DNA of 45,854 nt. Source: a virus. Each line of letters begins with the position of its first letter. Positions within the stretch are counted from its first letter, which is position 1. Positions 1,877-36,386 of this stretch are shown piece by piece. The stretch is from IMG/VR virus record IMGVR_UViG_3300005663_000011, positions 1 to 45,854 of that record. One strand, 5' to 3'. The notes under the pieces are model-generated. The model had not been told where the DNA came from. It saw only the letters and a program-made list of their open reading frames with translations, and ran no database searches. Both the position numbers and the translations under genes were made by a program.

Positions 1877-4800
1877 TTAGTTTTTACCGCCTATTAGTTC
1901 CCATAAATCTTGTTCTTCGGTTGTTTCGTATATACGCTTTATGCCGATAAAGGGAACACCTGTTGAGATGGCTGTTGCCTCGAATAGTGCTGGCATTATT
2001 TTATCCATATCACCAGAAAATATTGCACCGGAAGTTTTTGCTGCTGTTGAAATTACTGATGGCGAAGGCGCCCCCCATCCTCTTTTGCCTGCAAGAGTAG
2101 CCGAACCTATAACTGGCAACGATGCTAATGCTTGGTCTGTTAATGCTTCAAGAATATCGTCTCTGTCTTCGGGTAGCTCTTTGTGTTGTAATGCCCATAT
2201 CCAAGCAGCTACTATAGACAGGGCTATGACCGACCTACCAACCTCTGCAAATTGCCGGTTATACCACGCAGCAGGTATATCGTGAGTAGCCACATTATAT
2301 ATTTGATTGAGTTGATTAGTGAACATAGTAAACCAATTTAATACTTCGTTACTTGCATACACTTGGGCGATGTCTTTTGACGCCGCCGCTGGTTGTGTTC
2401 TTAAAGAAGTTTGTCGTGCTTTTTTCGCTGCTTCCGTTAATGATAAGCCCTGTCGTAATTGGTAATTGATTACTGCATTTTCGCCGATAACTCTAACGGC
2501 ACGGTCGACTTCATATATCCCCCGTAAGCCAGCAGTACCAATTTTCCGTACGATAAAAGTTCGTGCAGATTTATTGGTATGTTTCAATTCTTCCATTTCT
2601 CTTACAATTTGAGCGTGGCTGATTTGCCTGTTATGGCTTTGAATTGCTTCAAGGGTTTTCTTCGGATTTACTGCTACTTGTATGGCAGACATTAGTAAAT
2701 CGGAAAAACTTGAATTGACTGCATAAAATGCCAGCGATGGTGCTTGTTTGGCGACTGTCAATAAATTATATGACAGGAAAGCAACAGCAGTATTTTTTCT
2801 AAGTGCTCGTGAAATATTTTCAATATCGTCAAAGTTTCTATAGAAATCTGGATTTGCCGTACGCTTGAGATAATTTTTCAACGAACTGTATACGGGTTCA
2901 CCAAACTTATCTTTTACATTATCAGCAAAGCTTTTATTATTAACAACTGCATTTAAGTCTTTTAGTAACTTTGCCATCGCAATATAATGTTCCTGCTTGC
3001 GAACTTCGCCCTCCCAAACCCTTGTTAAAGATGTATCAATTGGAAGTTGATACTCTGGGGGAATCATTTGCCTCTCTTTAGTAAACTTGTCGTGAACCTG
3101 AACCGTACCAATTCTGTAATCGCTTTCATCAGAATAATCAAAGCCAGCCAGAATATCATCCTTGTTGGCTTTGTCCACACCAATCCTACGCATCTTGGTA
3201 TAATTCGTTACTCTGCCCAAATCTCTGTTTTCCGCTTCAATCACAGCATTTCTAATCCTATCCCAATTGTCTGCGTATTCTTCAATGACAAATTCCGCCC
3301 ACTTCTTTTCTTCGTTGGTTAGTCCTTCAACAACTTGGTTAAAAATATCCTCTGTAATAAGAAGCGTTTTGCCACTTTCCATTTCGATGCCACCCTGCTG
3401 AAGAGCCAGACGGGATTGTTCATTCATCCAACCTGCATAAATACCACTCATATCATCAACCGTGAGGGTTATGTCGCCAACCTTTCTTCTTCTGGAAAAA
3501 TGGAATAAAGACAAGCCAAGTTCTTTAAGTTTTGCTTTACCTCTTTGCTGGCGATGGTCAACGTGTGTTAGTTCAGAATCAGTTGCATCTTGGATGGCAG
3601 TATCGAACATTGTTACAAGCGTACCTGCGAATTTCTTTGCACCATCAAGCATATCAAGCAATCGTAACGGCCTTAAAAACGAAGCCCTTTCTTTCTTAAA
3701 GCCTTTAGGTTTTCTGGCGTTTTTGATAGAATCATTAGCGGCTTTGACCATTTTATTTAACTTGGCCTTGTTTTGTTTTGCCATTAACTTAGATTTGAGT
3801 TTGCCAAGCTTCGATAATCGTTTAATCTCGTCAAAGACTTGTTGTAATTGTGCCATCGATAAAGATTCTATATCTCGTTTTTCTAATGATTCAAGTATAT
3901 CTTCTGGGATTTCATTGGCTTGGTCTGGATTATCTTCTAAGTGTTTACGGAGGGCGGCTTTCTTTTTTGCACCTTTTACATCTTTTACCTTAAAATCTAT
4001 AGCAGATTGGATTTCTTTTATCGCCTTGGCATAGAACGGGTCAAGATTCTTGCTTGGTTCAGCTTTGATTTTCTCGGCAAGGTTCTTTCTGAGTTGTACT
4101 TGTTTGCGAAGATATTGTAGCTCTCTAAGTTCTTTTCTTGCGGCAGCAAAACCTTCCTTCGCCGCCTTTCGTACTCTACGCATAACACTGTTAAGCTGTT
4201 CTATTCTGGTAACGGTAACCTTGTCTGCTTTTGACATTTGAACAGAAAAAGATATTCTTTGATTTACATTATCTACAGTAAGAATAGTAGGTTTAGTTGC
4301 CCTAACAACTGTAAATGGCTGGTTGGGCTTGGGAAGCTCAAGGACTTTTCTAAGTTCCCTAATATCACCCCAATCCGCATTCACCCTTGCTAAATCATTT
4401 TCTGTTCTTATTAGATTATCATTAAGTCTTTGTTCCAAACTTGCCTCAAGCATTACTAATGTACTCATCGCCTGGTCGCCGGTCATCTCAATGGCTTCTC
4501 GCTTTGTAGGGAACGGGCCTTCGAGGAACGGTTTAACATCGCCCTCTTCTTTACCGAAAATTTCAGCGAATTTCTTTGCCATTCGGCGAGTAACATTGCC
4601 AATATAAAGTCTTGGCTTAACCGTTAATGGTAATTCTCTCTCAATGCCCTTTTCTATTTTGGTAACTTCGATTTGTTCTTCTTTTGGTAAAGCAGTAATT
4701 TCTTCGCTTATTTCTGTGGGTTCGATAACTTGTTCGGCCAGGGTTTTTGGGTCTACTCTTGGGCGTATATCAATAACACGGCCAATCTGTTGGTCAGGTG

Positions 4801-13203: not shown

Positions 13204-14158
13204 TTACTGTCCCCGTCTGTCTTGACCGAATCCATTCGGAATTAAAGATGGGTTTGGGTGTTCCCTGTGCGCCATCTATTGACCTCGCCTTTGGCATTGT
13301 GAGTCTTTCAAATTCGTTTATTAAATCTACCTTACCTTTGGTATCATTGGTAAGTCCGGTGATAATCTTGATAGCAAGTTTCATTGCTATGGCTTGTTTT
13401 AGCTTGGAACCCCATTTAGTAATATCTGTAAGTTGAGTGACGTAAGCTGTAAAGACTATTCTGTGGTCTATCTTGTCACCTGCCGCAGAGATGTTCCCTG
13501 CCAATATATCAACTCTCTGTTGGGCGGCGGTATTAGTGCCGGAGGTATCAGATGTATGTGTAACTAATACTTCGTAGGAAACTGTACTACCCTCTCCCCT
13601 TGAAACCAAATTGCCAGAAGTAACGTCATTAGAGACTGTATCAGAAGTGTGATTAACTAATACCTCATAAACTATAGTCCCGCTTTTGACATATTCTCCG
13701 TCTTTGTATACAGTTGCAGTAACCCACGCCTGAGGTGTGATTGAGACAAATTCGCCGTCTATGTATTCTATTCCAGAATCCCACGTCTGCGGTGTTTCTC
13801 CGGCATTAGAAAGAATGTATTCGCCCTCAACTTCCCAGGCGTTTATACCCTGTGATTTATTCCTCTGGTCAGAACCGAGACTATCATCAACAGAAACGAT
13901 TCTAAGAGCGGCAGAGGGCTTTGAATATCTTCTGTCATATCCGAATACTGGGTCGGTAGCATCTTGGAGTATAATGACCCTTACCATCGCCTCATTCCAA
14001 AGATGAGATTTTAACACTTCATCTCTTGCTTGGTCATAGTATCGAATACATAAAAGGTTCTGCTTCAACGCTCTTGAGGCAGTAGTATCTTCTACTTGAT
14101 ACTCCCCAACATAACCCAAAGCCAGATTGTGAATCACTTCCTGTGTCGAAAGCGCCAT
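13193..14158 (-). CDS. Tail adaptor (tail tubular protein A / gp11-like) with carbohydrate-binding-like insert
   Basis: 321 aa. The N-terminal part (EVIHNLALGYVGEY, DQARDEVLKSHLWNEA) and the C-terminal part (WGSKLKQAIAMKLAIKIITGL) match the gp11-type adaptor that links the portal to the nozzle. T7 gp11 is about 196 aa, and the excess here lies at about residues 125-210. That insert has W-x-Y-x-DGEYV and two copies of YEVLVxHTSDT. The pattern resembles CBM5/12-like carbohydrate-binding repeats. The insert falls at the position where the core would read YILSNAG...P. The ATG at 14158 follows the glycosyltransferase gene across a stem-loop. Confidence 0.8.
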   Translation of the reverse strand: MALSTQEVIHNLALGYVGEYQVEDTTASRALKQNLLCIRYYDQARDEVLKSHLWNEAMVRVIILQDATDPVFGYDRRYSKPSAALRIVSVDDSLGSDQRNKSQGINAWEVEGEYILSNAGETPQTWDSGIEYIDGEFVSITPQAWVTATVYKDGEYVKSGTIVYEVLVNHTSDTVSNDVTSGNLVSRGEGSTVSYEVLVTHTSDTSGTNTAAQQRVDILAGNISAAGDKIDHRIVFTAYVTQLTDITKWGSKLKQAIAMKLAIKIITGLTNDTKGKVDLINEFERLTMPKARSIDGAQGTPKPIFNSEWIRSRQTGTVNVW

Positions 14159-27073: not shown

Positions 27074-27098
27074 GCCCTGCGAAAGTGGGGCTTTTTTT
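27074..27098 (+). terminator. Intrinsic terminator of early block 1
   Basis: Stem GCCCTGC / GTGGGGC (7 bp with two G-U pairs) closed by a GAAA tetraloop, followed by seven T. It begins 15 bp after the stop at 27058. It separates early block 1 from the leftward block. Confidence 0.85.
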
Positions 27099-27106
27099 AT
27101 TGCTGT

Positions 27107-31172: not shown

Positions 31173-31182
31173 AGCTCTTTTA

Positions 31183-31320
31183 TATAATAATATCACAGAC
31201 CGGCGACCAATCTCCTCCCCTCCCCAATCTCGCTTTTACAGGTTGCCGGTCGGAATTATCCTCCTCTCCGAAGCCAGCAGCAACCTACTGGGACGAGGGC
31301 AAAGACATAAGCTGCTGGCT
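31183..31320 (+). ncRNA. Structured RNA candidate in gene-free gap
   Basis: In the 181-bp gap 31173-31353 there are two consecutive long hairpins. GACCGGCGACC pairs with GGTTGCCGGTC (31198-31208 / 31241-31251, one G-U). AGCCAGCAGC pairs perfectly with GCTGCTGGCT (31272-31281 / 31311-31320). Loop 1 is pyrimidine-rich (CTCCTCCCCTCCCC) and loop 2 contains GGGACGAGGG, so the loops could kiss. A TATAAT at 31183-31188 would start RNA near 31195, right before the first stem, but no -35 box is visible. No matching known RNA family is recognised. Confidence 0.55.
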
Positions 31321-31353
31321 GGAATAATAACTTATTTTAGAAGGGAGTTAATT

Positions 31354-32974: not shown

Positions 32975-33435
32975 CAATAGCTGACATTCTCAAATACCCA
33001 GTCGGGTACAAGTTTGGCGGGTGTGAATTAGAGATTAAGCACGCCAGAAAACTACGCAACCCCAAAGACAAAGGTGTGTGGTATCAGGAAGTAACCTTAG
33101 TTGATGAAACTGGCGAAATGCCTGCTGATGTCAAAATTGGCAAACGCAACCCTTTGCGACGAACAGCCGAAATCCATCTTATAGTTGCTGAAATTCAACG
33201 ATGTGAAACGGGCAAAAAAATCTATATTGACCAATTCTCATTTCCAACCCAATCCGAGCCGGACGAATGGAATCCCTTACTTGCCCCCACAGATGTCAGG
33301 AGTAGGGTTAAATGCTGGCTTGTGGCGGCAAATGTAGAACCAGGCAAAAACACCGACCTTGTGATGACTAATTTACTGGCCTTTGCCGAACACCCAATGT
33401 TAGAAAAAGTCATAGATTCGATATTAAAAGGTTGA
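32971..33435 (+). CDS. OB-fold-like nucleic acid binding protein candidate
   Basis: 154 aa, ATG at 32971 with GGAAG. The N-terminal 90 residues (ILKYPVGYKFGGCELEIKHAR, WYQEVTLVDETGEMPADVKI and KKIYIDQFSFP) alternate like an OB fold that wraps a nucleic acid. The C-terminal 50 are helical. It precedes the SSB gene by a promoter and two small genes. It could be a second ssDNA-binding or anti-recombination protein. Confidence 0.55.
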   Translation: MTIADILKYPVGYKFGGCELEIKHARKLRNPKDKGVWYQEVTLVDETGEMPADVKIGKRNPLRRTAEIHLIVAEIQRCETGKKIYIDQFSFPTQSEPDEWNPLLAPTDVRSRVKCWLVAANVEPGKNTDLVMTNLLAFAEHPMLEKVIDSILKG

Positions 33436-33460
33436 CAAATCCACCTATGTAAGATATGAT
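33432..33460 (+). promoter_or_regulatory. Rightward promoter upstream of the replication genes
   Basis: Perfect -35 TTGACA (33432-33437), 17-bp spacer, -10 TATGAT (33455-33460). The next gene starts at 33481 with AAAGGGG. This is the best promoter match in block 2 and would boost the SSB and methyltransferase region. Confidence 0.7.
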
Positions 33461-33480: not shown

Positions 33481-33837
33481 ATGATGACTGAACAAGAAAA
33501 ACTCAAAGCACAAATTGAGCAAAACGACACAGACCAACATAAACTCAAAGAAGAACGGGAGAGATTGCAAGGCACACTTGATAAACTGCGAACACCATAT
33601 TATTCCATAGGCGATAGATTTATAGGGAAATGGAGCGAGAAATGGATATTAAGCTATCAGGGTAGCAAAAGACCATCTTTTGTATCAATGGTTTGTTTGC
33701 GGGATGGTACTCGACATCACAATGCGTTTTCGGTTATGAATACTCGTGAGATAACACCAGAAGAGTTTAATGCAATTTGTGATGGGCATATATTCAGGCG
33801 GTATTGGGATATAAAAAAAGGATTAAAAAATGACTGA
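33481..33837 (+). CDS. Coiled-coil plus small beta-domain protein
   Basis: 118 aa, ATG at 33481 (second at 33484). Residues 3-38 are a coiled coil (EQEKLKAQIEQNDTDQHKLK). The rest is beta-rich with SIGDRFIGKWSEKWILSYQG and ITPEEFNAICDGHIFR. It shows the same layout as the protein at 40513. Overlaps the next ATG. Confidence 0.5.
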   Translation: MMTEQEKLKAQIEQNDTDQHKLKEERERLQGTLDKLRTPYYSIGDRFIGKWSEKWILSYQGSKRPSFVSMVCLRDGTRHHNAFSVMNTREITPEEFNAICDGHIFRRYWDIKKGLKND

Positions 33838-33991
33838 CCTAACATTAACCGCAATTCAAGCGTTATCACCAGAAGAACAGGAACAGTTTAAGGGCTATAT
33901 TAACCAATCTCTAAGGCGAATGAGAAGTAGGCAGTCAGCCATAAACAGATTATTAGAAACAGATTTTGAAAGGAAACAGAATGAATTTTAA
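33830..33991 (+). CDS. Small helical protein
   Basis: 53 aa, ATG at 33830, overlapping the previous gene by 8 bp. ALSPEEQEQFKGYINQSLRR and a basic helix. Its stop lies 11 bp inside the SSB gene, which suggests translational coupling. Confidence 0.5.
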   Translation: MTDLTLTAIQALSPEEQEQFKGYINQSLRRMRSRQSAINRLLETDFERKQNEF

Positions 33992-34490
33992 CGCAGTCAG
34001 ACAGGCCAATGGTGCCAATTTAACAATAAGCGCTATCGCCGACAGAATAGACGGGACTTCTTTTATCCCGTCTGGAACTCCCAAGCAGGACTGTAAGTTT
34101 ACCGATTCTAAAGGCGAACAGCAAAGCGTAACGATATGGCAAGGTAACGGTCAGCCCATACCCGAAGGCAAAGTAGGGCAAACACTTTCAATCAACATAA
34201 GCTGTAAAACCAAGGGCAACCGGACTAATTACGGCGGATTTTGGAACGCCACCGCCCAAGTGGCACAGTTAAGCTCACAACCTGCCTCTCAGGGCGCCCA
34301 GAACGCCGCAGGAAGCCAAAAACCAGACTGGGACGCCATAGCAGAGGGTAAAGTCCGGCACGGGCTTGTATGTGCAGCAATAGAATCCAATCAACTAGTC
34401 TGTAAGGATGTTTCCGACCTCGATTACTGGAAAAAGTATGTTATGACAGGCACAGTACCGGCAGAAACAGTAGATGATATACCATACTAA
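33981..34490 (+). CDS. Single-stranded DNA-binding protein
   Basis: 169 aa from the ATG at 33981, behind AAAGGAAAC. The N-terminal 85 residues form an OB-like barrel (ANLTISAIADRI, QSVTIWQGNGQPIPEGKVGQ, KGNRTNYGGFW). A Gln/Ser/Ala-rich linker follows and the chain ends VDDIPY. The end matches the acidic SSB tip (DDIPF in E. coli), which binds helicases, primase and repair enzymes. It would cover ssDNA in replication and recombination. It lies upstream of the methyltransferase. Confidence 0.7.
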   Translation: MNFNAVRQANGANLTISAIADRIDGTSFIPSGTPKQDCKFTDSKGEQQSVTIWQGNGQPIPEGKVGQTLSINISCKTKGNRTNYGGFWNATAQVAQLSSQPASQGAQNAAGSQKPDWDAIAEGKVRHGLVCAAIESNQLVCKDVSDLDYWKKYVMTGTVPAETVDDIPY

Positions 34491-34499
34491 GGAGAAATA

Positions 34500-34832
34500 A
34501 TGGAAGCAATACAGGTAGGCGCAGAAATTGAAAAAGCTATTGCGGCTCTCGGCGAAGAAGGGACGAAGTCCAAAGACCTAATTCAGGCCAAGGCACGGGC
34601 TATGGCCGATTACGATAAGGAGTTGGGGAGGAAAGTCGGGGCATTAAGGGCTTCCGGTACAGCAGTTAGTATTATCGACAAGAAGGCCAAGGGCGAAACT
34701 TCAGAAATGCTTTACAAAAGAATCGTAGCCGAAGAATCTCTGAAAGCCCACTATTCAAGAATGGGACAGTTAGAAGCACAATTAAACGGCTTACAGTCTT
34801 TGAACAAGCATTTGGAATATACTGTACATTAA
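34500..34832 (+). CDS. Conserved phage helical protein next to SSB
   Basis: 110 aa, ATG at 34500 with AAGGAG. Fully helical: AMADYDKELGRKVGALRASGTAV, DKKAKGETSEMLYKRIVAEES, ending LEAQLNGLQSLNKHLEY. This pattern recurs in phage recombination/SSB neighbourhoods with unknown function. The gene is followed by the attenuator-like element. Confidence 0.65.
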   Translation: MEAIQVGAEIEKAIAALGEEGTKSKDLIQAKARAMADYDKELGRKVGALRASGTAVSIIDKKAKGETSEMLYKRIVAEESLKAHYSRMGQLEAQLNGLQSLNKHLEYTVH

Positions 34833-34839
34833 ACTATAA

Positions 34840-34945
34840 CGGAGCGGGCAAAATGATTAGATTTTCTACCGTGAATAGAAAATGAGAACTAAATAGTAAA
34901 AAGGCACACACGGGGCTTGTTGTCCCTGCCCGCTCTGTTTTTATT
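34840..34945 (+). promoter_or_regulatory. Candidate attenuator: leader ORF inside a multibranch terminator
   Basis: CGGAGCGGGCA (34840-34850) pairs with TGCCCGCTCTG (34927-34937; 11 bp with one G-U), immediately followed by TTTTTATT. Inside are an 8-bp hairpin ATTTTCTA / TAGAAAAT with loop CCGTGAA (34861-34883) and a smaller GGG/CCC hairpin. The 5' strand of the closing stem carries the ribosome site GGAG for the 10-codon leader ORF at 34853-34885. Translation would disturb the terminator stem. The downstream gene starts at 34956. Confidence 0.65.
34853..34885 (+). CDS. Leader peptide candidate, 10 codons
   Basis: Encodes MIRFSTVNRK; the ATG is 8 bp after GGAG (34841-34844). The GGAG is in the 5' arm of the terminator-like stem, and the codons cover the 8-bp inner hairpin. 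Its position and size fit a translated leader controlling the downstream genes. Confidence 0.45.
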   Translation: MIRFSTVNRK

Positions 34946-34955
34946 AAAGGATTGA

Positions 34956-35192
34956 ATGATGGATGAAGAACAAAAAGAAGCATTGGGCTTTGTTTTGCGC
35001 CAAGCTATAAAACTTGGTTCTGTATTAGGTTCGTGGTTAGATTCAGATATGAAGTTCTGTCATCATGCAGCCAATGACGCCTTAAAGGCAATGACACCCC
35101 ATTTTGTTAGTGAGATAGAAACTCGCTTTAGGGAGATAGAAAGAAAAAAATCTGGTCTTTGCCAACTGTGCGGTAAAAAAAGAGAAGATTAG
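34956..35192 (+). CDS. Small protein with C-terminal CxxC
   Basis: 78 aa, ATG at 34956 (second at 34959), after AAAGGATTG. Helical, ending SGLCQLCGKKRED. It lies directly after the attenuator-like element, so it and the methyltransferase are the likely regulated genes. Confidence 0.55.
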   Translation: MMDEEQKEALGFVLRQAIKLGSVLGSWLDSDMKFCHHAANDALKAMTPHFVSEIETRFREIERKKSGLCQLCGKKRED

Positions 35193-35219: not shown

Positions 35220-35939
35220 ATGAAGATGCCGGTAAATGAAATTATATGTGGAGACTGTTTGGAAGTTATGAAGGACTGGCCTGATAACTGCGTGGATTTG
35301 GTGGTAACAAGCCCGCCGTATAACATTGGCAAGGAATACGACAAACATCAAGACAGAAAGCCGTGGCCAGAATTTATGGATTGGTTTAGACAGGTTTTTA
35401 TGGAACTAAAGAGGGTTTCGAGAGACGTGGTCTTGATTATAGGAACCCACAATAACCTCAAATTCTATACAGAAGCAAGAGAGTTATTGCATTTAGCTGA
35501 AAACTGTAGATGTATTTATATGCCAACTTGGTCTATTGTTAATCCGATAGAATTAGCTGTATATTGCTATGAAGACAATTCTGCTTGGACAAAAAAACAC
35601 CTTTTGCCAATTATTTGTAATGGAACTTTAGCGACGTTTGTACCTGTGGTTGTCGGCAAAGCAAATACAGAACAACTATACGATAATCACCCTTGCACGT
35701 TTCCAACAAGGTTCCCAAGAGTTTTTATTGAGGCGCTAACCGCCAAAGAGAGTATAGTTTTCGACCCTTTTGTAGGAGTAGGCACAACGGCTATGGTTGC
35801 AAAGCAATTAAAGAGAAACTACATAGGAATAGACATATCCGAGGAATACTGCGAGATAGCCAGGATGAGGATTAAAGCAGTTGAGATTGGCGTACCAGTT
35901 AAAGAACAAAAACAAGGGCAAATAGGTTTATTTGAATAG
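35220..35939 (+). CDS. Orphan DNA methyltransferase (N4-cytosine / N6-adenine, beta-class order)
   Basis: 239 aa, ATG at 35220 behind AAGGATGG; an ATG two codons later is also possible. Motif IV TSPPYNIG (residues 30-37) comes before the SAM-binding motif I DPFVGVGTT (near 180), with GIDISEEYCEIARMR after it. That order defines the beta class, and SPPY favours N4-cytosine but N6-adenine is not excluded. The end reads GQIGLFE, resembling the beta-clamp-binding motif QxxLF. No restriction partner is adjacent, so it probably protects phage DNA or alters expression. Confidence 0.85.
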   Translation: MKMPVNEIICGDCLEVMKDWPDNCVDLVVTSPPYNIGKEYDKHQDRKPWPEFMDWFRQVFMELKRVSRDVVLIIGTHNNLKFYTEARELLHLAENCRCIYMPTWSIVNPIELAVYCYEDNSAWTKKHLLPIICNGTLATFVPVVVGKANTEQLYDNHPCTFPTRFPRVFIEALTAKESIVFDPFVGVGTTAMVAKQLKRNYIGIDISEEYCEIARMRIKAVEIGVPVKEQKQGQIGLFE

Positions 35940-35951
35940 CCAGGGAAGGCA

Positions 35952-36386
35952 ATGAAGAAGTTTATACCACCAACTCTTGCAGAAGTCTATGACTATATCA
36001 CAGAAAAGGGATATAAAGTAGACGCCGAGAAGTTTATGGAGTATTTCACCGTAGGCGATTGGATAGATTCTAAGGGTAATAAAGTCCGTAACTGGAAACA
36101 GAAGATAATCACTTGGTCTGGGGGGGAGAAAGTAGAGAACAAGTCTTGTGTTATCTGTCGCAATAAAGGAACCTCTTTCCAGATGACTAAAGACAAAAAG
36201 GTCTGGCTCTGTGATGAGTGTAAAAGATATTTGGGTGGAAACTGGGGCGGCGTTCCGCTGGCTAAATTAGAGAGAATCATCGAACAGAACAAAAGCAGAA
36301 TAGATAAGCGCTTGTCCCAGCCAGACCAAGACGCAGTTTTGAACCAGCAAAGACAAACAGCATTGCGAGGACTAAAGAAAAATTAG
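35952..36386 (+). CDS. Replication-type protein with a zinc ribbon
   Basis: 144 aa, ATG at 35952 with AGGGAAGG upstream. FIPPTLAEVYDYITEKGYKVD, KFMEYFTVGDWIDSKGNKVR and NWKQKIITW follow the PPTLEEV...W...WKxAxxxW pattern found at the C-terminal end of phage replication initiators and helicase loaders. Residues 70-100 hold CVICRNKG and CDECKRY, a four-Cys zinc ribbon. It may recruit host helicase. This is the best candidate initiator in the genome, though the N-terminal winged helix of such proteins is missing. Confidence 0.6.
   Translation: MKKFIPPTLAEVYDYITEKGYKVDAEKFMEYFTVGDWIDSKGNKVRNWKQKIITWSGGEKVENKSCVICRNKGTSFQMTKDKKVWLCDECKRYLGGNWGGVPLAKLERIIEQNKSRIDKRLSQPDQDAVLNQQRQTALRGLKKN

Follow-up and report, generated by a model that had tools for sequence, protein, structure and literature searches.

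A terminator-like RNA element between two early genes of an uncultured phage and its possible control by ribosomes

We analyzed the IMG/VR virus record IMGVR_UViG_3300005663_000011, a stretch of 45,854 bases from an uncultured phage that is referred to below as the window. The phage is podovirus-like, with a portal protein ~31% identical to the portals of HTVC010P-type pelagiphages. Left of ~24 kb its genes lie mostly on the minus strand and are structural, and to the right they lie mostly on the plus strand and are of early type. A host search that compared the terminase with bacterial genomes returned no match. The element described here lies in the 123 nt that separate a 110-aa gene from a 78-aa CxxC gene, inside an operon whose genes share one strand. 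The features of the locus are as follows:

34500–34832, plus strand: upstream gene, 110 aa, phrog_1389 (function unknown), with the stop codon TAA at 34830–34832 and homologues in related phages (G002, G032, G006, L165 and L167)
34838–34850, plus strand: 5' arm of the 13-bp terminator-like stem (AACGGAGCGGGCA), from anatomy and folding
34841–34844, plus strand: GGAG, possible Shine-Dalgarno sequence of the mini-ORF, base-paired in the folded stem
34853–34885, plus strand: mini-ORF of 10 codons (MIRFSTVNRK), ATG at 34853 and TGA at 34883–34885, expected by chance at 1–4%
34861–34883, plus strand: inner A/U-rich 8-bp hairpin (34861–34868/34876–34883, loop CCGUGAA), from folding
34903–34906, plus strand: GGCA, a possible pairing partner of the 3'-arm UGCC in an alternative fold
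34912–34926, plus strand: 5-bp hairpin GGGGC/GUCCC (pairs 34912–34916/34922–34926), directly adjacent to the 3' arm of the main stem and absent from the initial annotation
34927–34939, plus strand: 3' arm of the terminator-like stem (TGCCCGCTCTGTT), from anatomy and folding
34937–34945, plus strand: U-tract GUUUUUAUU, read from the sequence (given as GTTTTTATT at the same positions)
34956–35192, plus strand: first downstream gene, 78 aa, CxxC, with its ribosome site AAAGGA directly 3' of the U-tract
35220–35939, plus strand: DNA methyltransferase (N6_N4_Mtase, PF01555)
35952–36386, plus strand: 144-aa protein whose N-terminal part resembles phage replication proteins

The initial annotation had listed a small CxxC protein, a DNA methyltransferase and a replication protein as the downstream genes. 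The first two assignments hold, and the third comes solely from an N-terminal match of 52–72 residues to phage replication proteins. Single-query protein look-ups with the 110-aa and the 78-aa neighbour genes gave no matches. A promoter-like site (11/12) is present at 33432–33460, upstream of the gene group 33481–34832, in a window where such matches are no more frequent than in shuffled sequence. No promoter match was found in the ~10 nt from the U-tract to the next gene. Between the U-tract and the next ribosome site there is no room for a promoter; expression downstream therefore most likely requires read-through from upstream.

The main stem (34838–34850/34927–34939) starts 5 nt after the stop codon of the phrog_1389 gene and consists of 13 bp, with one G·U and eight G-C pairs. 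The 11-bp stem with a U-tract that had been annotated initially is present at 34840–34850/34927–34937 and is thus part of it. The stem closes a branched loop of 76 nt that is partly filled by inner hairpins, of which the 8-bp hairpin is weak (−4.4 kcal/mol alone). The whole element has a minimum free energy of −36.1 kcal/mol (z = −4.15), and none of 200 shuffled sequences folded as well. When the window was scanned for a perfect stem of at least 9 bp with at least 7 G/C and a loop of 20–120 nt, followed by a T-tract, an arrangement of this grade was found once in 45.9 kb, where shuffled sequence predicts 0.07. The opposite strand lacks a T-tract 3' of the stem. We conclude that the gap hairpin is a real, non-random terminator-like RNA element, which is probably functional in some way. 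As in an intrinsic (Rho-independent) terminator, the G/C-rich stem is followed directly by a U-tract; the loop has 76 nt in place of the usual ~3–10 nt. The same phage also has ordinary terminators, one of which is the compact canonical intrinsic terminator at 27074–27101 of the window (GCCCTGCGAAAGTGGGGC TTTTTTTATT).

The 10-codon leader ORF that had been proposed inside this stem, with its GGAG in the 5' arm and its codons over the inner hairpin, is indeed there: GGAG and ATG are separated by 8 nt, and the 8-bp hairpin lies at the end of the ORF. A functional GGAG is possible because the genes of this phage use Shine-Dalgarno sites; a corresponding tetramer stands at the right distance before 30 of the 47 ATG genes of at least 100 aa, compared with 10% of internal ATGs. 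Shuffling the gap produced an ATG ORF of at least 8 codons behind GGAG in 0.95% of cases, and in 3.4% when GGAG, AGGA or GAGG was accepted. Micro-ORFs of 5–40 codons with a Shine-Dalgarno sequence and ATG occur at 0.35 per kb on the plus strand and 0.24 per kb on the minus strand, so that ~3–4% are expected per such gap; the one at the element was the sole case among the nine intergenic gaps checked. The stem, which lies far beyond the shuffles, is therefore solid, whereas the ORF, whose arrangement arises by chance at 1–4%, is weak. Judged from its sequence, the mini-ORF is intact, but as a regulatory or translated element it is an unproven candidate. An amino-acid-specific leader-peptide attenuator of the trp or ilv type was rejected, since MIRFSTVNRK contains no regulatory codon run.

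The effect of ribosomes on the fold was calculated by masking their footprints on the RNA, for ribosomes whose P site lies at the leader AUG, codon 5, codon 8 or the last codon. With the P site on the AUG, the main stem was lost (−17.3 kcal/mol versus −36.1 kcal/mol unmasked), and the 3' arm and the U-tract went into other pairing. Placing the P site at any of the three later positions restored the main stem (about −30 kcal/mol). Only initiation thus masks the stem; the 5' arm is free from codon 5, and codons over the weak inner hairpin do little. The proposal that ribosome loading would melt the terminator accordingly stands, in the calculation, for an initiating ribosome and fails from codon 5 on, where the stem re-forms. 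If the model is right, the ten codons would be no timer, and initiation rather than codon passage would hold the terminator open.

The reading we favour, to which we assign a probability of roughly 0.4, is that the element is an operon-internal attenuator of the intrinsic-terminator type in the phage early operon, held open by ribosomes. The layout of the sequence, the non-randomness and direction of the stem and the masking effect in the calculation are established; termination, ribosome control and translation of the mini-ORF are what we infer. Transcripts from upstream would arrive at the element just past the phrog_1389 gene. If no ribosome covered 34838–34850 when the 3' arm was made, the 13-bp stem would form on the U-tract, and a fraction of the transcripts would stop around 34945, short of the ribosome site for the 78-aa gene. 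A ribosome finishing the upstream gene, or initiating at the GGAG/ATG of the mini-ORF, would mask the 5' arm; the 3' arm and the U-tract would then pair elsewhere, and the polymerase would continue into the CxxC gene, the methyltransferase gene and the following genes. The large branched loop would delay the decision by ~100 nt of transcription, which would give time for a ribosome to arrive, and the mini-ORF could recapture ribosomes that end the upstream gene.

In E. coli, ribosomes at a stop codon less than 27 nt before a terminator already suppress termination (PMC4824070), so the mini-ORF is not needed for such an effect. With just 5 nt from the upstream stop to the stem, the ribosomes that translate the upstream gene are stronger candidates than those of the mini-ORF. 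Translation coupling that is mostly attributable to the upstream gene, and perhaps also to initiation at the mini-ORF, is therefore plausible as a model. Counting against the attenuator reading are the loop, whose size greatly exceeds what is typical of intrinsic terminators, the failure to find a homologue of the stem or the ORF, the weaker or absent U-tracts of the relatives, and the G032 fold, which does not surpass shuffled sequence.

It is also quite possible that the element, with its structured loop, is simply a polarity element or an ordinary intrinsic terminator that would lower the downstream relative to the upstream genes by partial termination, and that the GGAG, the ATG and the ORF are coincidental and exert no translation control. 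The GGAG belongs to a G-rich arm that the stem requires in any case, micro-ORFs are found on either strand at 0.24–0.35 per kb (1–4% per gap), and neither the ORF nor its Shine-Dalgarno sequence is conserved in the relatives. However, at 5 nt behind a stop codon, interference by ribosomes is hardly avoidable in a coupled host (PMC4824070), and the good spacing to an ATG, in the only such ORF of nine gaps, also speaks for more than coincidence.

A search for homologues of the element, stem or ORF, found none. Rfam gave no match in the window at the gathering threshold, nothing credible for the element at a permissive E-value, and none for it in the relatives either. A DNA pattern of the stem matched viral contigs 168 times, five of them with a T-tract, two of which were tRNA-like; none of the T-tract matches inspected had the layout of the element. 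The methyltransferase, the terminase (60–82% identity) and a motif of the phrog_1389 gene led to related phages. Four of them (G002, L167, G032 and G006) have predicted structure in gaps of the same neighbourhood, in sequences that are not alignable; an alignment of the elements of the window, G002 and G032 revealed no convincing homology. Neither the ORF nor the stem sequence is conserved in the related phages found, and the design with a Shine-Dalgarno sequence in the arm and an ORF is not convincingly repeated in the four.

In G002 (IMGVR_UViG_3300028610_000454), the phrog_1389 homologue is followed by a 65-aa gene and then by a branched RNA closed by GCUGGCGG/CCGCCAGC, after which comes a second, separate hairpin with UUAUUU, a weaker U-tract than in the window. 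L167 (IMGVR_UViG_3300022539_000216) has phrog_1389, two small genes and then a 10-bp stem (GGGGCAGGCU/GGCCUGCCCC) with a branched loop (z −3.0). Its 5' arm is formed by the last codons of the upstream gene, and a hairpin abuts the 3' arm, followed by UUAUU (again weaker than in the window) and the next ribosome site, so that the layout is comparable to that of the window element. In G032 (IMGVR_UViG_3300005253_000397), directly 3' of phrog_1389, the 5' arm of a GC-rich fold is overlapped by an 8-codon ORF preceded by AAGGAG; this fold is no better than shuffled sequence (z 0.06 to 0.32) and has no U-tract. G006 (IMGVR_UViG_3300037245_001228) carries a strong 14-bp closed RNA with U8 ~1.2 kb past phrog_1389. 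The shared placement near the upstream stop is weak evidence, because any stem across a short gap must begin there.

Such neighbours bear on the unlikely explanation that the element is a structured RNA other than a terminator, i.e., a phage RNA that is processed or stable, or an element acting on mRNA stability or through RNase III. The compact GC-rich stem, the branched loop and the hairpin stacked on the 3' arm recall tRNA-like or junction RNAs, a closing stem with a loop of 60–85 nt also fits tRNA geometry, and this neighbourhood is occupied in the related phages by different structured RNAs, some of which include tRNA-like parts. Against it, the U-tract directly 3' of the stem is what a terminator requires. 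A tRNA identity was rejected, as neither ARAGORN nor Rfam matched the element, and so was a pseudoknot between CCGUG of the inner loop and CACGG downstream, which appeared at chance level (13% of shuffles). A chance palindrome without function, which would agree with the missing sequence conservation and with an unremarkable fold at this place in one related phage, is very unlikely in view of the 0 of 200 shuffles, the 0.07 expected per whole window and the recurrence of structured gaps in the relatives.

Further structures were noted in these phages. In the window, the noncoding gap 31173–31353 contains two strong stems, GACCGGCGACC/GGUUGCCGGUC and AGCCAGCAGC/GCUGCUGGCU. CCUCC/CUCCUCCCC, which resembles anti-Shine-Dalgarno sequence, is abundant in both the first loop and the spacer. 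The loop motif AAUCUCGCUUU of this gap recurs in a stem loop of the related phage L163, on the minus strand near 13826. A larger structured RNA with a common GCGUGUGnGAAACGCA and a tRNA-like T arm (GCAGGUUCGAnUCCUGC), recognised by neither ARAGORN nor Rfam, is found on the minus strand of L163 (~13815–13690) and in L164 (3500–3700). L164 also contains, at 3291–3411, a 14-bp closed RNA (AATGGGTGATAGAA/TTCTATCACCCATT) with a 13-bp inner stem, U8 directly 3' and a possible 8-bp pseudoknot AACCUUGG/CCGAGGUU (fold z −5.3); it has a riboswitch- or attenuator-like look and no Rfam match. L122 has a four-arm, cloverleaf-like RNA at 3213–3300, flanked by a 65-aa gene and a NinG-like HNH gene, in which two loops (GUGGUA and AACCAA) may kiss. 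In L163, GGCCGUAAGUCGG stands in tandem copies (minus strand, 9926 and 9909) in the gap that follows the phrog_1389 gene.

If the favoured reading as a ribosome-held attenuator is true, the phage would tune its downstream DNA-metabolism genes by ribosome availability, through a cis-acting RNA alone and in the middle of an operon, and the element would offer a simple reporter system for how a large structured loop times a termination decision. A broader idea, which we consider distinctly doubtful, is that there is a phage family of operon-internal terminators with the 5' arm under ribosomes that finish an upstream gene or start a mini-ORF. In such a family, the branched loop would set the delay, replication and DNA-modification genes would be scaled to translation capacity, and the layout would be kept in position while the sequence turned over completely.

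The proposed mechanism would be of a known kind, by analogy with the ampC and pyrBI attenuators of E. coli. The statement of the initial annotation that no phage example with this exact layout is known to be described agrees with our failure to find a published phage ribosome-loading attenuator in the open-access literature, which is only part of all literature; the principle itself is known from these two E. coli systems. In the ampC attenuator, the ribosome-binding site and the start codon are located in the 5' part of the stem, and a ribosome that loads there impedes the terminator. Output is coupled to ribosome supply, and a start-stop codon pair holds the ribosome on the stem. This attenuator is reportedly growth-rate-dependent (Jaurin et al. 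1981, Nature 290:221, as cited in PMC9241650). The phage element likewise has a ribosome-binding site in the arm, with a start codon at 34853 from which an initiating ribosome masks the arm in the calculation, and the proposed logic of ribosome loading is the same. It differs in that ampC has its attenuator near the promoter and a start-stop pair, whereas the phage element lies mid-operon, 5 nt after the end of an upstream gene, with a 76-nt branched loop and ten codons, from the fifth of which the stem re-forms.

In the pyrBI attenuator, leader translation is coupled to transcription (PMC4824070), and a ribosome close behind RNA polymerase stops the terminator hairpin from forming, as we propose for the phage. 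However, pyrBI has a longer leader ORF and nucleotide-dependent pausing, neither of which is seen in the phage element. The tR2 model terminator (PMC4824070) is similar in that terminating ribosomes suppress it from a stop codon less than 27 nt before the hairpin (5 nt in the phage). That hairpin is compact, whereas in the phage the polymerase must transcribe a further 113 nt past the stop codon to complete the stem. In whiB7/wblC and ilvB-II (PMC11550727) and in mgtCBR (PMC3641672), a terminator is likewise preceded by a short ORF and alternative stems; these systems respond to amino acids, antibiotics or other signals via translation of the leader ORF. In contrast to these, the phage ORF has no regulatory codon run, and its proposed effect would be the direct covering of a terminator arm. 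If this holds, ribosome-masked attenuation of the ampC/pyrBI type would be extended to phages.
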